Shown here: positions 4,109-29,269 of the stretch, in pieces
How the letters are laid out: every line of letters begins with the position of its first letter
Position numbering within the stretch: position 1 is the stretch's first letter
Source of the DNA: Lachnospiraceae bacterium
GTDB taxonomy: Bacteria; Bacillota; Clostridia; Lachnospirales; Lachnospiraceae
Assembly (NCBI GenBank): GCA_022797535.1
Contig: JAAWKU010000004.1
Span: 1-58,334, forward strand
Reading direction: 5' to 3'
Length of the DNA: 58,334 nucleotides
Made by a program: the position numbers and the translations under genes
The notes under the pieces: generated by a model
The model's input: the letters and a program-made list of their open reading frames with translations, nothing else
Told to the model about the DNA's origin: nothing
Databases searched by the model: none

Positions 4109-4453
4109 CTATATCAGCTCCATCAGCCCGTCCAGCGGGGAGTACACCTGCAGTCCGCAGCCTTCTGCCAGTGCCTTAAGCTGCGCCATCTGCATGGACG
4201 AATGCGTCAGGCAGCGTCGGTTTGCCACCAGCAGAATATCCGCTTCCCCCCGGATGGCAGCATCCGCAAAACGCCGGAAACCGTTGCGCTCACACAACGG
4301 CCTCCTCCCTATGTCGCTGGAGCTGCCCGCCATTTCAAATCCCATCTGCTCTGCATAATCAAAGAGCAGCATGCGCTGCTTTTTTAATGTGTCATTTTGA
4401 TCCTCTGGCGCATCAATTGAGCAGTAAGCCCAGGCACGTCTCCCTTTGTCCAT
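4109..4453 (-). CDS. Resolvase-like protein lacking the catalytic serine
   Basis: The fold and order of motifs match the serine-recombinase catalytic domain: WAYCSIDAP at the N-terminus, a helix with Q, then DILLVANRRCL and a final beta-strand VYSPLDGLMELI. Where active enzymes have YxRVS, this protein has YCSID, so both the arginine and the nucleophilic serine are replaced. There is no DNA-binding tail; the protein stops after about 114 residues. It may bind recombinase subunits or DNA as a regulator, or be a decaying copy. The start at 4453 follows AAAGGGGG with 6-base spacing; a longer frame begins at 4510. It overlaps the toxin gene by about 40 bases, which suggests co-expression. Confidence 0.7.
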   Translation of the reverse strand: MDKGRRAWAYCSIDAPEDQNDTLKKQRMLLFDYAEQMGFEMAGSSSDIGRRPLCERNGFRRFADAAIRGEADILLVANRRCLTHSSMQMAQLKALAEGCGLQVYSPLDGLMELI

Positions 4454-4901
4454 AAGCAGCCCCCTTTCTGTCCCCCGGCTCAGCCTGATTTCTTCTAGCG
4501 GGTTCTGCATCAGTCTCTTTTCCTTGCTGCTTCCGGGCCTCCTGCGGGCAGAACATCCCGTCCAGCCCTAAACTGACCACAATTGCATGATCCACATCCT
4601 GCATGGTCACCCTGTCCGCCCGGCCTATGTATTCCTTCAGCCTGGTCCGGTCAATGGTGCGAACCTGTTCCAGCAGGACGGTGGATTCCTGTACCAGCCC
4701 ATAAGGGCTGTCCTCCAGTCTGATATGGGTGGGGAGCGGTTTCTTTCCCTGCCTGCTGGTAATGGCGGCTGCGATCACCGTGGGGCTGTGCCGGTTCCCC
4801 AAGTCATTCTGTATGATCAGCACAGGCCGGGTGCCGCCTTGCTCGCTCCCGACCACTGGTGTCAGGTCAGCATAATAGATATCGCCCCTTTTAATCTGCA
4901 T
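4413..4901 (-). CDS. PemK/MazF-family toxin
   Basis: Sequence-specific endoribonuclease of the MazF/PemK fold. The signature GDIYYADLTPVVGSEQGGTRP at the N-terminus (RG-D-I-Y-x-A-DL plus the TRP motif), the PTVIAAAITS strand, LVQESTVLLEQVRTID and the final helix are all present. The core ends near residue 120; about 40 extra charged residues follow and overlap the next gene. AAGGGGAC precedes the ATG. No classical MazE precedes it; the nearest candidate partner is the basic 110-residue protein just upstream, and that pairing is inference. Such genes stabilise mobile elements or regulate them after entry. Confidence 0.92.
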   Translation of the reverse strand: MQIKRGDIYYADLTPVVGSEQGGTRPVLIIQNDLGNRHSPTVIAAAITSRQGKKPLPTHIRLEDSPYGLVQESTVLLEQVRTIDRTRLKEYIGRADRVTMQDVDHAIVVSLGLDGMFCPQEARKQQGKETDAEPARRNQAEPGDRKGAAYGQRETCLGLLLN

Positions 4902-5495: not shown

Positions 5496-5608
5496 AGACC
5501 GGCCCTGGCTTAAAGGCCGTCATGGGTTTTCCCCCTCCGAGGTTCTCTCCGGGCCGCCCTCATTGCGTGATCCCGCTCCTGCGGGGCTGTGACTGGACGG
5601 AAGTATCA

Positions 5609-5857
5609 TTATGGGCTGTCCATGTCATGGCAAACGGCCCGCCACAGGCCGCCTTGGGACGAACATTTGCCGCTCTGCATCTTTGATGTGATCTTATTGA
5701 CAGGTTGTTCCCTGCAGATGGTCCTGGCGTATTCTCCGCACCGCTTTGCTCTTTCAAGCTGGACAGCTAACGTATCTTTGCTGCTGGATATGACCGCCTG
5801 CCGACGGTATTTTTCAAAGAGCGGAGGGAAGAAAAAGCCCCCTCTACTTACTTCCAC
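5609..5857 (-). CDS. Possible small protein between the sigma-like gene and the toxin block
   Basis: The open frame has a GTG at 5857 and no clear ribosome binding site. The middle (SSKDTLAVQLERAKRCGEYA) looks helical and protein-like, while the N-terminus looks like leader sequence. It is in line with the upstream sigma-like gene on the same strand. Without a good start or a recognised family this is only a candidate; the rest of 5496-5886 shows nothing else. Confidence 0.3.
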   Translation of the reverse strand: MEVSRGGFFFPPLFEKYRRQAVISSSKDTLAVQLERAKRCGEYARTICREQPVNKITSKMQSGKCSSQGGLWRAVCHDMDSP

Positions 5858-16023: not shown

Positions 16024-18990
16024 TCAGATCTGCTCCTGCACAGGCTCCCTGTCATCCCTCTTGTGGCCCTGGGCCTGTTTCTTCTCCGAGAGCCTGCGGC
16101 GGCGTTTCCGGTCGATGTGGAACGGGCTGCCCCCTGCGGCCCTCTGCACATCCTCCCTAAGCAGCTTTTCCAGCCGGTGCATCAGGCGGGTTGCTGCCAG
16201 GAACAGGTCGGCGTCCTGAAATGCATCCATGTGCTCCAGCAGGAATGCCGCATAAATGTTGCCCTGTCCCGCGGCGGCCTGCAGGTACACAGTGGCTTTT
16301 TCCCTGTCATGGGGAATGTCTTTTCCGCAGAGGTACAGCTTTCCAAGGGCATACTGTGCATGTTGGTTTCCCTGCCCTGCAGACTGCTCCAGCCAGTAGA
16401 CGGCTTTTTCCACGTCCTTTGGAATATCCTCCCCGGAAAGACACAGTTTTCCAATGGTGTATTGTGCGTATTGGTTTCCTCGTTCTGCGGACTGCCCCAG
16501 CCAGTAGACGGCTTTTTCCACGTCCTTTGGGATATCCTCCCCGGAAAGACACAGTTTTCCAAGGGCGTACTGTGCGTATTGGTTTCCCTGTCCTGCGGAC
16601 TGCCCCAGCCAGCAGACGGCTTTTTCCATGTCCTTTGGGATATCTTCCTCGGATAGATACAGCCGCCCCAGCCGGTATGCCGCATAATCATTTCCCTGTC
16701 CTGCCGATAAGGTGAACAGTTCCACCGCCCTTGCAGCGTCCCTTTCTACCACCTCCCCGGACAGGCAGAGCTTACCGAGGGTATATTGGGCGGCGGCGTT
16801 TCCCGTCTCCGCCGCCTTAGTAATCCAACGGACGGCCTGCGCAGTATTTCCTTCCCCGGTTTCCAGCCACAGTTTCCCAAGGGCATACTGCGCATGGACG
16901 TTCCCCATCTTTGCCGCCCGCCCCCAATAAGCCGCAGCGGCATCATCATCCCTCTCGGTTCCCGTGCCGGTGTGCAGCATCTGTCCCAGACGGTACTGCA
17001 GCTTGTCATCTCCGCTCTTTTCTTCCAGATACAGAAAGCCGGAAAATGCATTCTGAAAACTGGTATCGGCCCGGCTGCTGTCCGTCTGTGTGCCAATCCC
17101 GTCACGGTACATCCTTGCCAGTTCATAATCCGCATATGGATTGCCCTGTTCCGCAGAGCAGCCATAAAGCCGGAATGCCTCTGTGTCATCCTGTGCCACG
17201 CCCTGCCCCCGGTGGTATAAGCCCGCAAGGGAATACTGCGCATACTTATGCCCTGCCGCTGCCGCCTGGGACAGCCACCGCGCCGCTGTCCCATAGTCCT
17301 GTTCGGCGCCAAGTCCGGCGGCATATATTTTCCCGATGCGGTATTGCAGGTAGGGGCGTTCCCCTTCCTTTGCTTCTTTCTCTGCCCCATGGAAAGCCTG
17401 CAGCGCCTTGGCGTACCATTCCTGCGCCGCATCCTGATCCGCATCCTGTCCAAGACCGTCCGCACATATCCTGCCCAGATCATGCATCGCCAAGGCGTTC
17501 CCCGCCTCCGCCTCCTGACACAGCAGGGTGCGGGCCTGTGTAAAGTCCTGCACGACATTCCCTGATCCGTAGAGATATCTGCGGGCCTGCTTATAGTTCT
17601 TGTTCCACTCCGCATAAAAGGCCGGACTGCCGCCAGCATCTTTCGGTGATTCCCTTTCCGCCGTCCTGCCGTCAGGTTCTTCCGCCCTGTCCGCATCCTC
17701 CGTGGGCCAGTCAGGGATAACCTCCGAAAACCAATCAGAGGCATCACTCAGAAAACAATCAGAGGCATCTTCCGGAAACTGGCCAGCGGTGTCTTCCCTG
17801 TCTGGCAGTCCTTCCCCGTCCGGAAACAGGCTCTCCCTTTCTTCCTGCCATGCCTCATCCTCAAAGAGAAACCGGCCGCTGCCCAGCCTGACCGCCTCCG
17901 TGATTACCATGTTCTTCAGGCTCTTAAACTGGGGCTGGCTGGAAAGCGGCGGCAAGGGCGGCGTGCTGTTCCGGTAAGTCAGCAGAATCTCACCCTGCCA
18001 TTTCCCCCATGCCCGGTACAGCGCATCCACCTTTTCCTCCTTCGCCAGTTCATCTACGATTCTGTCTACCAGATTTTTCACATCCCGCTTAAGGTACCCG
18101 TACACTTTTTTCCCGCCCGTGTTCTGCAGACGTTCTGAAAGTCGCACCATCATCTTCTCAATCTCCGTGCTTGCCACCGTGCTGCGGCGCAGTGCGTCCA
18201 TCGTCTCCCGCACCGCATTTGCAGCGCCTTTTTTCAGGTCTGTGCGGGATTGGTTCTGTTTTTCATAGATGTGCGCAAAGTCTTGCCGGAAGATATCGTG
18301 GGCCAGCTCCGAGCGCATGGCCTCGATGGACTTTTCCGTCAGGTATCCGTCATTGTCCTTTGCGGAATAGACCATCAGGTGTACATGGGGGTGGTGTCCC
18401 TCGTTGTGGAATGCGGCATACCAGCGCAGGTTGGCGCTGTCAATCTTCATGTGTTTGCAGAGCATAGCCCGCTTGGAGCGCAGCAGCGCCATCCACTGTG
18501 CGGCGCTGTCATAACCCAGCCTTGCGGCATCCTCCCGCCGTAGGGAGATGACGTGGGTCCAGACCGGGCCTTTATGTGCGGCCGCTTCCTGCTCCACCTG
18601 TTTTAACACCACCGCTTTCCCTGCGTCCGTAAACAGGCCGTGCTCACCCAGGCGTTCCACTCTGGGACGGTTTGCGATGTAATCCACATAGTTCTTCCGG
18701 CTGCCGATGAGATCCACGTTCTGCTCCAGAGCACAGGAGATAAACTCCGATGCGTTCCCCATGGTGGGGCGCAGCAAAAAGTCCGTGTATTCCAGCATCT
18801 CCTTTGCGGGCGGGATGTCACGGACGATCTGGCGTATCAGGTCTTTCTGCTGTATTGTGGCCGGGAGGTTCTGCCTGCTCCCTTCCACCTTCTCCACGCC
18901 CTCACGGGTGCTGACGTAGCGGACATAGTTCTCCAGCTGTGCTGGAGGCGCGTCCCGCAGGTAGCGGGAGGTAAAGATTATTTTTGGCAT
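16024..18990 (-). CDS. mobP3: MobP3-family relaxase with a long Sel1-repeat tail
   Basis: The relaxase nicks oriT and covalently leads the strand into the recipient. The N-terminal ~360 residues match MobP3: PKIIFTSRYLRDAP, YVRYVSTREGVEKVEGS with the candidate tyrosines, RPRVERLGEHGLFTDAGKAV, and the metal triad HHPHVHLMVYS near 200. A charged linker follows (about 360-460), then about eleven Sel1/TPR-like repeats of 36 residues (AQYALGKLCLSGEDIPKD and variants) to about 940, and a basic tail. Sel1 repeats bind protein partners; here they may contact VirD4 or host factors (inference). Three of the repeats are nearly identical in DNA. GGAGGGG before the ATG at 18990 sets the start. Confidence 0.93.
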   Translation of the reverse strand: MPKIIFTSRYLRDAPPAQLENYVRYVSTREGVEKVEGSRQNLPATIQQKDLIRQIVRDIPPAKEMLEYTDFLLRPTMGNASEFISCALEQNVDLIGSRKNYVDYIANRPRVERLGEHGLFTDAGKAVVLKQVEQEAAAHKGPVWTHVISLRREDAARLGYDSAAQWMALLRSKRAMLCKHMKIDSANLRWYAAFHNEGHHPHVHLMVYSAKDNDGYLTEKSIEAMRSELAHDIFRQDFAHIYEKQNQSRTDLKKGAANAVRETMDALRRSTVASTEIEKMMVRLSERLQNTGGKKVYGYLKRDVKNLVDRIVDELAKEEKVDALYRAWGKWQGEILLTYRNSTPPLPPLSSQPQFKSLKNMVITEAVRLGSGRFLFEDEAWQEERESLFPDGEGLPDREDTAGQFPEDASDCFLSDASDWFSEVIPDWPTEDADRAEEPDGRTAERESPKDAGGSPAFYAEWNKNYKQARRYLYGSGNVVQDFTQARTLLCQEAEAGNALAMHDLGRICADGLGQDADQDAAQEWYAKALQAFHGAEKEAKEGERPYLQYRIGKIYAAGLGAEQDYGTAARWLSQAAAAGHKYAQYSLAGLYHRGQGVAQDDTEAFRLYGCSAEQGNPYADYELARMYRDGIGTQTDSSRADTSFQNAFSGFLYLEEKSGDDKLQYRLGQMLHTGTGTERDDDAAAAYWGRAAKMGNVHAQYALGKLWLETGEGNTAQAVRWITKAAETGNAAAQYTLGKLCLSGEVVERDAARAVELFTLSAGQGNDYAAYRLGRLYLSEEDIPKDMEKAVCWLGQSAGQGNQYAQYALGKLCLSGEDIPKDVEKAVYWLGQSAERGNQYAQYTIGKLCLSGEDIPKDVEKAVYWLEQSAGQGNQHAQYALGKLYLCGKDIPHDREKATVYLQAAAGQGNIYAAFLLEHMDAFQDADLFLAATRLMHRLEKLLREDVQRAAGGSPFHIDRKRRRRLSEKKQAQGHKRDDREPVQEQI
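16391..16714 (-). repeat. Near-identical 108-bp tandem repeats inside the relaxase gene
   Basis: Units begin at 16391, 16499 and 16607, exactly 108 bases apart, each encoding one 36-residue Sel1 repeat with the motif DIPKDVEKAVYWLGQSAG. Neighbouring Sel1 units differ much more, so these three are a recent expansion that could change in number by slippage or recombination. Confidence 0.9.
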
Positions 18991-19013
18991 GGCGTTCCCC
19001 TCCTTTATCACAC

Positions 19014-19045
19014 AAAAAAAGAACGCCCTTGTATGAACGTTCTTA
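19014..19045 (-). terminator. Terminator below the type III toxin-antitoxin operon
   Basis: On the minus strand AAGAACG pairs with CGTTCTT around a 12-base loop, followed by seven T. It separates the inserted toxin-antitoxin locus from the relaxase gene, which starts 23 bases further on. Confidence 0.85.
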
Positions 19046-19057
19046 CAAAATATTTTA

Positions 19058-19825
19058 TTAGTATTCTTTGATTTCTATTTTCTGTATTTCCAATATATCT
19101 TCTGGAGGTATGCTTTTTTTAATATGCTGGCCTATGCTTATTGGATAGTCGTAATCCATAAACAGTTTCGAGGTTATAAATCTCAATATCTCCATAAACA
19201 CGTCATCATTTTGGAACGAATATAGATCATTTAATTTGAAACGGAATTTTACCATCACCGGAGTTCCCATTCCCGTCAACACGTCCCATATCTTTTCCAT
19301 TCCTTCATGATTCTCAAATGAGCGCTCTGCAATTTCGCCGCCATAATTTCTTGCAAAATAATTAAATTTTCCCTTATAGAGCAGATTGTCTGGTGCAAAA
19401 AAGCATACCCGCCCCTTGCGTTCTCCAAGATACCCATCATACATTTTCCGTATTCTTGCCATGGCATAACCAATGTCACTCTCCACTATGCCATTTTCCC
19501 TTAACGCTTTAGATAATCGGTTACAGTAACTGTCAAACTCCAGCTTGGCTAATCCATGCTTCAGTATTTCATCATCGGAACAGATTCTTGTAACATGGTA
19601 TCCAATCCAAAAATATTTTTCTGCTATATTCCAAAATTCTTTATACACCAGCTGGATAATGTTTTCTGACCAAAAAAAATCACTAGGTAAAGCACATTGA
19701 ACGGAAAAGGCATCTTTCGGTGTTCGTGAATTTACATACTTTTGCAGATGATCAGAACGATTTTTAACGCACTCCATAATATCTTCAGGATAGGTTTCTA
19801 TCTGTTCAACATATATTTCTTTCAT
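19058..19825 (-). CDS. Unknown protein coupled to the type III toxin
   Basis: I do not recognise this 255-residue protein. It is mixed alpha/beta, with no signal peptide or membrane segment, and is rich in aromatic residues (EKYFWIGYHVTRICSDDEIL, RVCFFAPDNLLYKGKFNYFA). Its ATG shares the sequence ATGA with the toxin stop codon, and GGAGGG lies just upstream, so it is translationally coupled to the toxin. It ends at a strong terminator, making it the last gene of the toxin-antitoxin transcript. Type III systems normally contain only RNA and toxin, so this is an added component or passenger; its role is open. Confidence 0.8.
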   Translation of the reverse strand: MKEIYVEQIETYPEDIMECVKNRSDHLQKYVNSRTPKDAFSVQCALPSDFFWSENIIQLVYKEFWNIAEKYFWIGYHVTRICSDDEILKHGLAKLEFDSYCNRLSKALRENGIVESDIGYAMARIRKMYDGYLGERKGRVCFFAPDNLLYKGKFNYFARNYGGEIAERSFENHEGMEKIWDVLTGMGTPVMVKFRFKLNDLYSFQNDDVFMEILRFITSKLFMDYDYPISIGQHIKKSIPPEDILEIQKIEIKEY

Positions 19826-20376
19826 ATATCCCTCCGCTGTGTCTTCCAATGCTGCTGATTCTTCCGCTTCTGCTGTACCATTTCCAGCTTTTTAAAATCG
19901 CAACAGCGTTTTTTCAAGAAACCATTGGCTTTATCCGACTGTACCATGATATACAGCTTATTAGCCTTTTTGACAATAGCTTCTTGGTTGCGCTGACACC
20001 AATCCAGCTGCTTTACCGCCATTTTTTTATAATTCCTTGCGGCAGCATCATCCCTTCCGATTACCCGGAGATTCAAGGGAACAATACAGCTTTCATCCAC
20101 TGGTATCATGTTGTTAAAATTTAAAACACCAATCAGCTTCTCCCCATCTAAAATTTTCATAAAATCCACATCATTCTTCATGGTTTTATGTTTTGGCTTC
20201 GGGGAGCTTAATGGGATGCAGTATTTCTGTTCCCCGCACACAATTACGATTCCCACAAAGGGCCTGGTTTCCTTTCCGACCTGTGGGGATACCGACATAA
20301 CTCTGTCATCTGCTTTTGCCAGATTTCGTATGTACTTCATATCTATGAGGTATAAATTCAGCCTTTTCTGTTCCAT
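19822..20376 (-). CDS. ToxN/AbiQ-family type III toxin (endoribonuclease)
   Basis: A 184-residue protein of the ToxN/AbiQ family. The opening LNLYLIDMKYIRNLAKADDR, the strand FVGIVIVCGEQKYCIPLSSPKPKHKTM and NNMIPVDESCIVPLNL are the typical N-terminal features, and KRCCDFKKLE ends the fold. Known relatives cut RNA at A-rich sites and are held inactive by a pseudoknot RNA made from upstream repeats. Just such a repeat array and terminator lie upstream at 20424-20564. AAGGGAC precedes the ATG. It may serve in phage defence or in element maintenance. The lower GC than its neighbours suggests insertion into the transfer region. Confidence 0.9.
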   Translation of the reverse strand: MEQKRLNLYLIDMKYIRNLAKADDRVMSVSPQVGKETRPFVGIVIVCGEQKYCIPLSSPKPKHKTMKNDVDFMKILDGEKLIGVLNFNNMIPVDESCIVPLNLRVIGRDDAAARNYKKMAVKQLDWCQRNQEAIVKKANKLYIMVQSDKANGFLKKRCCDFKKLEMVQQKRKNQQHWKTQRRDI

Positions 20377-20423
20377 AGCTGTCCCTTCATCAAAAATATT
20401 TTTCGCAAATTTTCTTTCGGGTA

Positions 20424-20451
20424 AAACTTAAGGCTGCGCTTCCGCGCAGCC
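20424..20451 (-). terminator. Terminator between antitoxin RNA and toxin
   Basis: GGCTGCGC pairs perfectly with GCGCAGCC around a GGAA tetraloop, followed by TTAAGTTTT. Known type III loci have a leaky terminator at this place to make excess RNA antitoxin over toxin mRNA. Confidence 0.88.
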
Positions 20452-20600
20452 TCAGATCGACTCCACTTCCGGTAGGACTCACCGCTTTTATAGGTTCCAC
20501 TTCCGGTAGGACTCACCGCTTTTATAGGTTCCACTCTCAGTAGGACTCACTGCTTTTTACAAGAGCATAAACTCCCATACGATAAGCTATGCTTATCTCT
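20452..20600 (-). ncRNA. Type III antitoxin RNA (ToxI-like), three 34-nt repeats
   Basis: Three head-to-tail repeats of exactly 34 bases (20463-20496, 20497-20530, 20531-20564); two are almost identical and the third has a few changes. The unit contains GCGGTGAGTCCTACCGGAAG, able to form a small hairpin or pseudoknot. The RNA would start near 20600, pass a GATAAGC/GCTTATC hairpin (20581-20597), and end at the 20424-20451 terminator. The expected action is that ToxN cuts the precursor into 34-nt units that then bind and inhibit it; the cut sites cannot be told from sequence alone. Confidence 0.85.
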
Positions 20601-20606
20601 AACTAA

Positions 20607-20635
20607 TTTATACCCAAAAATAGAAACTATGTCAA
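20607..20635 (-). promoter_or_regulatory. Sigma-A promoter of the antitoxin RNA
   Basis: Consensus TTGACA (20635-20630), a 17-base spacer, and TATAAA (20612-20607) on the minus strand. The strength fits the need for a large excess of antitoxin RNA. Confidence 0.88.
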
Positions 20636-20687: not shown

Positions 20688-21101
20688 TCAGTTTTCCCGC
20701 CTCTGGTACCTGTACGCATCTTCAAACTCCACTGCGCCGTTGATGCGCTTCACTTCCTCCACACACTTCACATGGAGTTTCTGCAGCGCCTCCCCATCCA
20801 CGTCATGGGTGTAAGCAATGATCTGGGACAGCTTGGAAAGTTCCACCGCAATCTTAAAGTCCATCCGGGCCAGACGGTTCTCGCTGTCCTGCACCGTCCC
20901 TGCCACGGCGGAGGATAAGGACTGGAGCAGGTAATCTTCCGCCTTCCCCGCCATGAGGTATCCCAGATAAAACCGCAGCGCGTCCCCGATCAGCTCCGTG
21001 CGGTTTCTGGCCGCACCATTCCCGATGCAGGAATCGGCCAGCTCCAGAAGCTGCGTATCCACCCTGATGGAAAATTTGGCCTTATCCGCATTTGCGCCCA
21101 T
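20688..21101 (-). CDS. Relaxosome accessory protein (MobC/ribbon-helix-helix type)
   Basis: A 137-residue protein with an N-terminal ribbon-helix-helix (KAKFSIRVDTQLLELADSCI, NRTELIGDALRFYLGYLMAG) and a helical tail containing MDFKIAVELSKLSQIIAYTH, typical of proteins that bind oriT next to the relaxase. AGGAGG before the ATG at 21101 fixes the start; the open frame extends 76 codons further without a signal. In the ancestral order it would precede mobP3 directly; the type III toxin-antitoxin locus now separates them. Confidence 0.82.
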   Translation of the reverse strand: MGANADKAKFSIRVDTQLLELADSCIGNGAARNRTELIGDALRFYLGYLMAGKAEDYLLQSLSSAVAGTVQDSENRLARMDFKIAVELSKLSQIIAYTHDVDGEALQKLHVKCVEEVKRINGAVEFEDAYRYQRREN

Positions 21102-28397: not shown

Positions 28398-29165
28398 TTA
28401 CTGTAATGTGGGGGACTGGCCCCTCTCCTGCTGTGGTCCGGAAAGCTCAATGTACCGCTCCATCTGCCTGTCCACAAGCCCTGCCACCAGCTCCGCAAAG
28501 GGCTGCAGGTTCCCCTCCACCGCATAGGCCTCCAGTGCCTTGAAATATTCCAGCCTGTCCTCCTTGGCGATGGAAACGGGCGGGAACCCCTCCGCCATGA
28601 GCTGGTAGTTCATGATGAGCCTTGAGGTCCTCCCGTTCCCATCCGTGAACGGGTGTATCTTCACAAATTCCGCATGGGTCCACGCCGCCAGCTCCACCGG
28701 GTTCAGCTCCTTCCCCTTCCAGGACAGGTCCGCGTAAAAGTCCTTTACCTGCCGGTACATGAGCGGCGGGGGCGGCGGCATATGCTGTGCGCCGGAGATA
28801 TACACCTGCACGTCCCGGTATACCCCGCCGACCTGGATGTTCTCCATCAGCAGGGCATGGATGTCCTTGACCTTCCCCTCGTCCAGGGGCATCCCCTTCC
28901 CGATGCATTCCTTCACATAGCGGAACGCCTTGCGGTGGTTGACCGCCTCATAGATCTCCCGCAGCGCCTTCCCCCCGATGGAGATCCCGTCCTCCAGGAG
29001 CACCTTTGTCTCGATGAGCGACAGGGTATTCCCTTCTATGGCCGTGGAATTGTGGGTATATTCTATTTCAAATGCCCGGTCAAAGGTGAACGTGGTATAT
29101 TCCGGGATGGATTCCCGGCACCGGCCGTATAGTTCCTTTTTCCGGAACAGCTCCTGATAGTCCAC
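28398..29165 (-). CDS. Fic-domain protein (AMPylase-type), self-inhibited class II
   Basis: The catalytic motif HPFTDGNGRTSR is complete (around 172). NSTAIEGNT near 38-46 is the inhibitory helix motif (S/T)xxxE(G/N), so the protein carries its own brake. The N-terminal DUF4172-like part and the C-terminal helices are of normal length. Fic enzymes transfer AMP to Ser, Thr or Tyr of target proteins; the target here is unknown. The start is GTG at 29165 after AAGGAGGG; the open frame continues 8 codons upstream. The position inside the transfer operon suggests a role in maintenance or recipient control. Confidence 0.9.
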   Translation of the reverse strand: MDYQELFRKKELYGRCRESIPEYTTFTFDRAFEIEYTHNSTAIEGNTLSLIETKVLLEDGISIGGKALREIYEAVNHRKAFRYVKECIGKGMPLDEGKVKDIHALLMENIQVGGVYRDVQVYISGAQHMPPPPPLMYRQVKDFYADLSWKGKELNPVELAAWTHAEFVKIHPFTDGNGRTSRLIMNYQLMAEGFPPVSIAKEDRLEYFKALEAYAVEGNLQPFAELVAGLVDRQMERYIELSGPQQERGQSPTLQ

Positions 29166-29269
29166 AAAAAAGCCCTCCTTCTCTTTCAAAACTTCCTCTT
29201 ACAGTATAGCACATTTCCCCGCTATAGTAAGCCGGAATTTCATTTCCTGTAAAGGAAATTGTCCCCCGC

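Follow-up and report, generated by a model that had tools for sequence, protein, structure and literature searches.

What kind of system stands between the relaxosome gene and the MobP3 relaxase gene of the mobile element found in this Lachnospiraceae contig, of which we analysed a stretch of 58,334 nucleotides (the window)? A first-pass annotation had seen there a complete type III, ToxIN-like toxin-antitoxin locus embedded in an ICE. From comparisons at the sequence level, it is very probable that positions 19014-20635 are indeed a type III toxin-antitoxin locus of the ToxIN family, and that a Lachnospiraceae ICE carries it as cargo in its relaxosome-MobP3 slot. Profile and PDB matches, covariation of the RNA and comparison with related loci all back the ToxIN call. 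The ToxIN parts are present as announced, but a third gene (ORF2) had been overlooked, such that the locus reads, from 20635 to 19012 on the minus strand, as promoter, leader, ToxI array, hairpin, toxN, ORF2 and terminator.

The toxN gene (19822..20376, minus strand) is predicted to encode a 184-aa endoribonuclease toxin of the ToxN/AbiQ type, as had been proposed from its sequence: its product matched the Pfam ToxN profile PF13958 (E=2e-49, 168 bits for a cut-off of 25) and the PADLOC AbiQ profile (6.6e-37), together with four solved ToxN/AbiQ proteins in the PDB, which are 4ato (ToxN of B. thuringiensis, 1e-15), 2xd0 (Pectobacterium ToxN), 7d8o and 4glk (AbiQ, E=1.3e-7). The active site of ToxN_Ec comprises K33, T52, S53 and K55, with R replacing K33 in some clusters (PMC8860590), and the counterparts of these residues in our alignment are R38, S57, S58 and K60, the replacement of T52 by S being a conservative change that is common to most relatives. 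The genome holds one ToxN, the one of the window, and a search of this genome with the RNA model detected no second strong ToxI array. Viral contigs gave no match to the window ToxN protein, and an alignment query gave only four distant matches in them.

The promoter (TTGACA, 17 nt, TATAAA; 20607..20635, minus strand) is where it had been reported and is invariant in an alignment of the six closest loci; the consensus promoter scan demands a final T, which TATAAA does not have, and so omits it. Downstream, the single 5' hairpin described before became two by fold prediction, GATAAGC-AUA-GCUUAUC and AUGGGAGUUUAUGCUCUUGU, in a leader (20559..20597, minus strand) that is kept in relatives. Between ToxI and toxN, sequence and fold prediction gave a strong, GC-rich hairpin, GGCUGCGC-GGAA-GCGCAGCC (20423..20454, minus strand), and relatives have a hairpin at the equivalent position. 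It had been taken for a tetraloop terminator, of which the GGAA loop stands, but the U tract is interrupted (UUAAGUUUU) and the hairpin is absent from the simple terminator scan list, and we describe it as attenuator-like. The intrinsic terminator at the end of the operon (19012..19044, minus strand), found in the sequence and by the terminator scan, does carry the seven T that had been noted, but the 255-aa ORF2 stands between it and toxN.

The antitoxin would be encoded by the tandem array of three 34-nt units at 20456-20557, whose tandem score of 52 compares with at most 10 over 300 shuffles. These repeats had been called exact, and only two are: the third 34-mer matches them at 71% in the register of the repeat finder and at 30/34 in the unit's own register (AAAAGC...). 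Using a covariance model of the unit (R1), all three were recovered on the minus strand: the imperfect unit 1 (20524..20557, E=1.1e-12), which differs from unit 2 (20490..20523, E=2.3e-13) at 4/34 positions, and unit 3 (20456..20489, E=5e-12), whose 3' tail departs in its last bases, after GUGGA. The first stem (S1) is CGGU:ACCG in unit 2 and CAGU:ACUG in unit 1, a compensatory change, while the second stem (S2) of unit 2 is UCC:GGA.

Related loci were drawn from whole genomes and from GTDB contigs, and a pattern search upstream of toxN gave 210 units in 93 records, 148 of these units being distinct as some loci had been fetched twice. Stem positions fixed by the search pattern were not counted as evidence of covariation; at the pattern-free ones, the S1 pair 7:19 is G-C in 89 distinct units and A-U in 55, and the S2 pair between position 13 and the base after GUGG is U-A in 84, C-G in 38 and G-C in 21. 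When 34 distinct units were aligned, an H-type pseudoknot had 94.1% paired cells and a covariation of 0.343, with both stems contributing, versus 0.159 in shuffles (0/500 as high) and at most 0.083 in slid versions of the structure. Since kinship alone can beat shuffles without any structure, more weight should be given to the slid control and to the three kinds of S2 pair. The same core (GGUG-type stem, CUACC-type partner, AAGUG) is also found in Pectobacterium, Lactococcus, Fusobacterium and Sutcliffiella repeats, which identifies the fold of the window lineage as ToxI. Altogether, these comparisons indicate that the ToxI unit of the window lineage is an H-type pseudoknot of ordinary ToxI architecture.

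When we searched the loci with R1, including those used to build it, we recovered 126 units from 43 loci. All of them share the strand of the toxin gene and, with few exceptions, immediately precede toxN; three is the modal number of units across loci. No gathering-level match was obtained with Rfam (release 15) over the array, only chance matches with E up to 5. The suggestion that the unit defines a new antitoxin RNA family thus holds in a restricted way: the window-type unit has the pseudoknot core of known ToxI and is common to dozens of gut Firmicute loci, and it is new only as an antitoxin RNA unmatched in Rfam. Two side observations came from these searches: L061, L086 and L096 have extra ToxI arrays near toxN (R1), perhaps from neighbouring second ToxIN loci, and the ToxI units of L004, L059, L071-L076, L084, L085, L090 and L097 are longer (~48-53 nt), loop two of their pseudoknot containing an additional hairpin-like insert.

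The window encodes a serine recombinase, a coupling protein, a TraG-type ATPase, a toprim-like protein and a MobP3 relaxase, and the element is therefore ICE-like. Both flanking genes are on the minus strand: the MobP3/MobL relaxase with Sel1 repeats (16024..18990; NF041499, 1.8e-113; PF18555, 1.1e-32), and, upstream of it, a small protein without Pfam family (20688..21101), considered as relaxosome-type from synteny in related ICEs. The GC content is 36% in ORF2 and 42% in toxN versus 57-58% in these flanks, in line with the AT-richness noted previously. The relaxosome and MobP3 genes had been described as normally adjacent, and they are so in one of the four relatives in which both lay inside the fetched stretch (about 80 bp, L146), but 1.1 kb (L143), 1.6 kb (L142) and 3.1 kb (L144) of cargo separate them in the three others. 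Each of these three gaps contains a 95-aa ORF, accompanied, in the same order, by an aminoglycoside nucleotidyltransferase-like gene (4017-4511 of L143), by a radical SAM gene, and by MerR and small ORFs; in L145, a transposase-like gene is found at the contig end. Judging from these gene orders, ICEs of this family use the interval between the relaxosome and MobP3 genes as a slot for variable cargo. Other genes of the window were also noted on the minus strand: a PemK/MazF-like toxin gene (4413-4901; Pfam 3.7e-34), which gives the element a second toxin gene and is preceded by an Rfam pemK RNA (5520-5612), and a gene for a Fic/DOC-family protein among the transfer genes (28398-29189).

In L036, a Roseburia MAG, part of the same ICE is present with the order relaxosome, ToxIN, MobP3; its ToxN is 90% identical to that of the window and its operon-end terminator is identical, but ORF2 is missing. 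The simpler reading is that the slot received ToxIN first and ORF2 later, the alternative history being that ORF2 was lost in L036.

What, then, is ORF2 (19058..19825, minus strand)? One answer would be that the locus is a three-part defence operon, in which ToxI-ToxN and a co-expressed, ADP-ribosyltransferase-like ORF2 effector work together. The ATG of ORF2 overlaps the toxN stop as ATGA behind a good ribosome-binding site (GGAGGG), the protein has a YHxT motif, and the best VIA matches of its AlphaFold model were largely ADP-ribosyltransferase folds, all of which would suit such an effector. These matches had Z values of 4 to 7, below the clear level of the tool, the pLDDT of the model is 57, and the model of an ORF2 relative, also of low confidence, did not repeat them, such that the fold remains a weak lead from modelling and filing ORF2 as an ADP-ribosyltransferase was dropped. 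ORF2 had no family match in Pfam, NCBIfam or PADLOC, and nothing meaningful was found in plasmids, phages, viral contigs or PHROGs. Its relatives are rare: that of L034 lies 31 bp behind the end of HsdR, that of L033 follows a GmrSD/HNH restriction gene and that of L134 a SEC-C protein. The first two of these neighbourhoods would also fit a defence operon, but two ORF2 relatives are interrupted by stop codons; the L033 copy has two stops. L141 and L140 were set aside as relatives, their matches being weak and that of L141 landing on unrelated genes; in L139, a streptomycin adenylyltransferase gene (558-1415) directly precedes a truncated ORF2 relative. Among the loci seen, this genome is the only one with ORF2 behind ToxN, and L036, whose ToxIN copy in that slot is the closest, has none. 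A three-part operon is thus unlikely, and ORF2 is probably a defence-associated rider gene.

It is still less likely that the locus has lost its function and is decaying. Its AT-rich, foreign DNA and the altered C-terminal tail of ToxN beside ORF2, which is unlike that of the L036 ToxN, would fit such a decay, but the frame is intact, and the active-site residues, the promoter and all three pseudoknots, one with a compensatory change, have been retained. That the system would be a CptIN, a TenpIN or an AbiF is hardly credible: CptIN does occur in related bacteria of the gut, Eubacterium rectale for example (PMC4627078), but the toxin scores 168 bits with the ToxN profile while its sole NCBIfam match, TenpIN, reaches 13.2 bits for a cut-off of 90, and the units have 34 nt instead of 45 (CptI) or about 50 (TenpI) (PMC12373285).

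A ToxIN locus carried as ICE cargo may then work as follows, by analogy with its family. A single promoter would drive transcription of the ToxI array, and the hairpin before toxN would let only a share of the transcripts continue into toxN and into ORF2, the latter being probably a defence-associated rider added later behind toxN. ToxN would cleave the array at the A-rich linkers (UAU-AAAAG), releasing H-type pseudoknots of ~34 nt that would bind and block it. If the element was lost, or if a phage shut off host transcription, the ToxI supply would stop, the labile ToxI would decay, and free ToxN would cut mRNAs, leading to a growth stop. Processing, inhibition, addiction and phage defence are here all extrapolated from the family, and a combination of addiction with phage protection is plausible for the window ToxIN; against it, anti-phage activity is not universal among ToxIN systems, none having been seen for ToxIN_Bt in its native host (PMC5086642).

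The closest characterised systems are the ToxIN of B. thuringiensis (4ato) and Pectobacterium atrosepticum (2xd0/2xdb), which share with the window locus a ToxN homologue, 34-36-nt tandem units with a GGUGA-N4/5-UACC-AAGUG H-type pseudoknot core, A-rich linkers and a hairpin between array and toxin. Only about a third of the toxin residues are identical, however, and the number of units is three here versus 2.9 in Bt ToxIN and 5.5 in Pa ToxIN; S2 as UCC:GGA, the two-hairpin leader, the third, coupled gene after toxN and ICE carriage also set the window locus apart from both. AbiQ/antiQ of Lactococcus lactis (4glk) belongs to the same ToxN/AbiQ family and has about three units of 35 nt, but it is a Lactococcus phage-resistance locus, whereas the window is from a gut Lachnospiraceae ICE. 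The gut Lachnospiraceae and Roseburia ToxIN given in Table 3 of PMC6315513 share the family, the host group and a tandem array of around three units, with units of 38-39 nt for the entries seen in that table and mostly 34-36 nt in the window lineage. The CptIN of Eubacterium rectale (4rmo) shares the type III principle, with 45-nt units and a tetramer where the window has 34-nt units and a ToxN profile match. Separately, a Fusobacterium plasmid ToxN (L132, 798-1670) has an extended frame of about 290 aa.

Is a tandem array needed at all? Type III systems are defined by tandem arrays (PMC5086642), and repeats are called one of their key features (PMC12373285). A sister group of ToxN relatives, ~50% identical, has upstream regions without any tandem repeat (18 distinct regions; loci L005-L012, L015, L017, L018, L021, L093, L099, L101-L103, L105, L106, L108, L110-L112 and L114), in which one pseudoknot unit (GGUGAGUCCUACC..AAGUGG) is followed by AAAAGCG, a hairpin and a terminator. 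The GTDB loci of this clade have exactly one plausible unit apiece, one chance pattern match in L114 being set aside, and an R1 scan of 17 sister-clade loci gave one match at E<0.01 and no second in 14 of them; the L012 match was marginal (E=0.9), while L017 and L021 were assigned by sequence alone. In the tree, 15 sister-clade rows form one starred group (99/88), with a support of 91/82 when L021, which is on a very long branch, is included. In 21/23 records, 9 to 11 nt separate the end of a -10-like hexamer from the unit downstream of it, which would place the transcription start at the 5' end of the unit. The downstream hairpin covaries, both sides being changed in 8 rows at column pair 48:70, in 11 rows at 52:66 and in 8 rows at 54:64. 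A further pseudoknot between its loop and the pre-terminator sequence pairs by eye in some loci and fails in others, and was dropped. As for the toxin, the active-site motif SSPK is replaced by SHPV, SHAV or SHAA in ToxN of L006, L007, L010, L011, L105, L108, L110, L111 and L114.

From these alignments, we lean towards the following joint proposal: tandem repeats would not be defining for type III antitoxins, the sister clade using a single pseudoknot; the 5' end of this pseudoknot would be the transcription start and its 3' end would lie at one AAAAG, ahead of the conserved hairpin and the terminator; and part of the clade would have replaced two active-site residues of ToxN. A natural single-unit antitoxin is credible because a single CptI unit expressed from a plasmid is fully antitoxic (PMC4627078). 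In the literature searched, of incomplete coverage, we came across no type III antitoxin that lacks tandem repeats. The single-unit organisation appears to be at odds with how type III antitoxins have been defined in the literature and to be more novel than the window locus, and since reviews define type III systems by arrays, surveys requiring tandem repeats would miss this clade.

The window locus itself is an ordinary ToxIN of an already-known type. Its place in the relaxosome-MobP3 interval indicates that a toxin-antitoxin locus can settle there beside transfer genes, and the 148 distinct pseudoknot units provide a covariance model for an antitoxin unmatched in Rfam. The sister clade, finally, makes it testable why ToxI units repeat and how one pseudoknot can hold ToxN.
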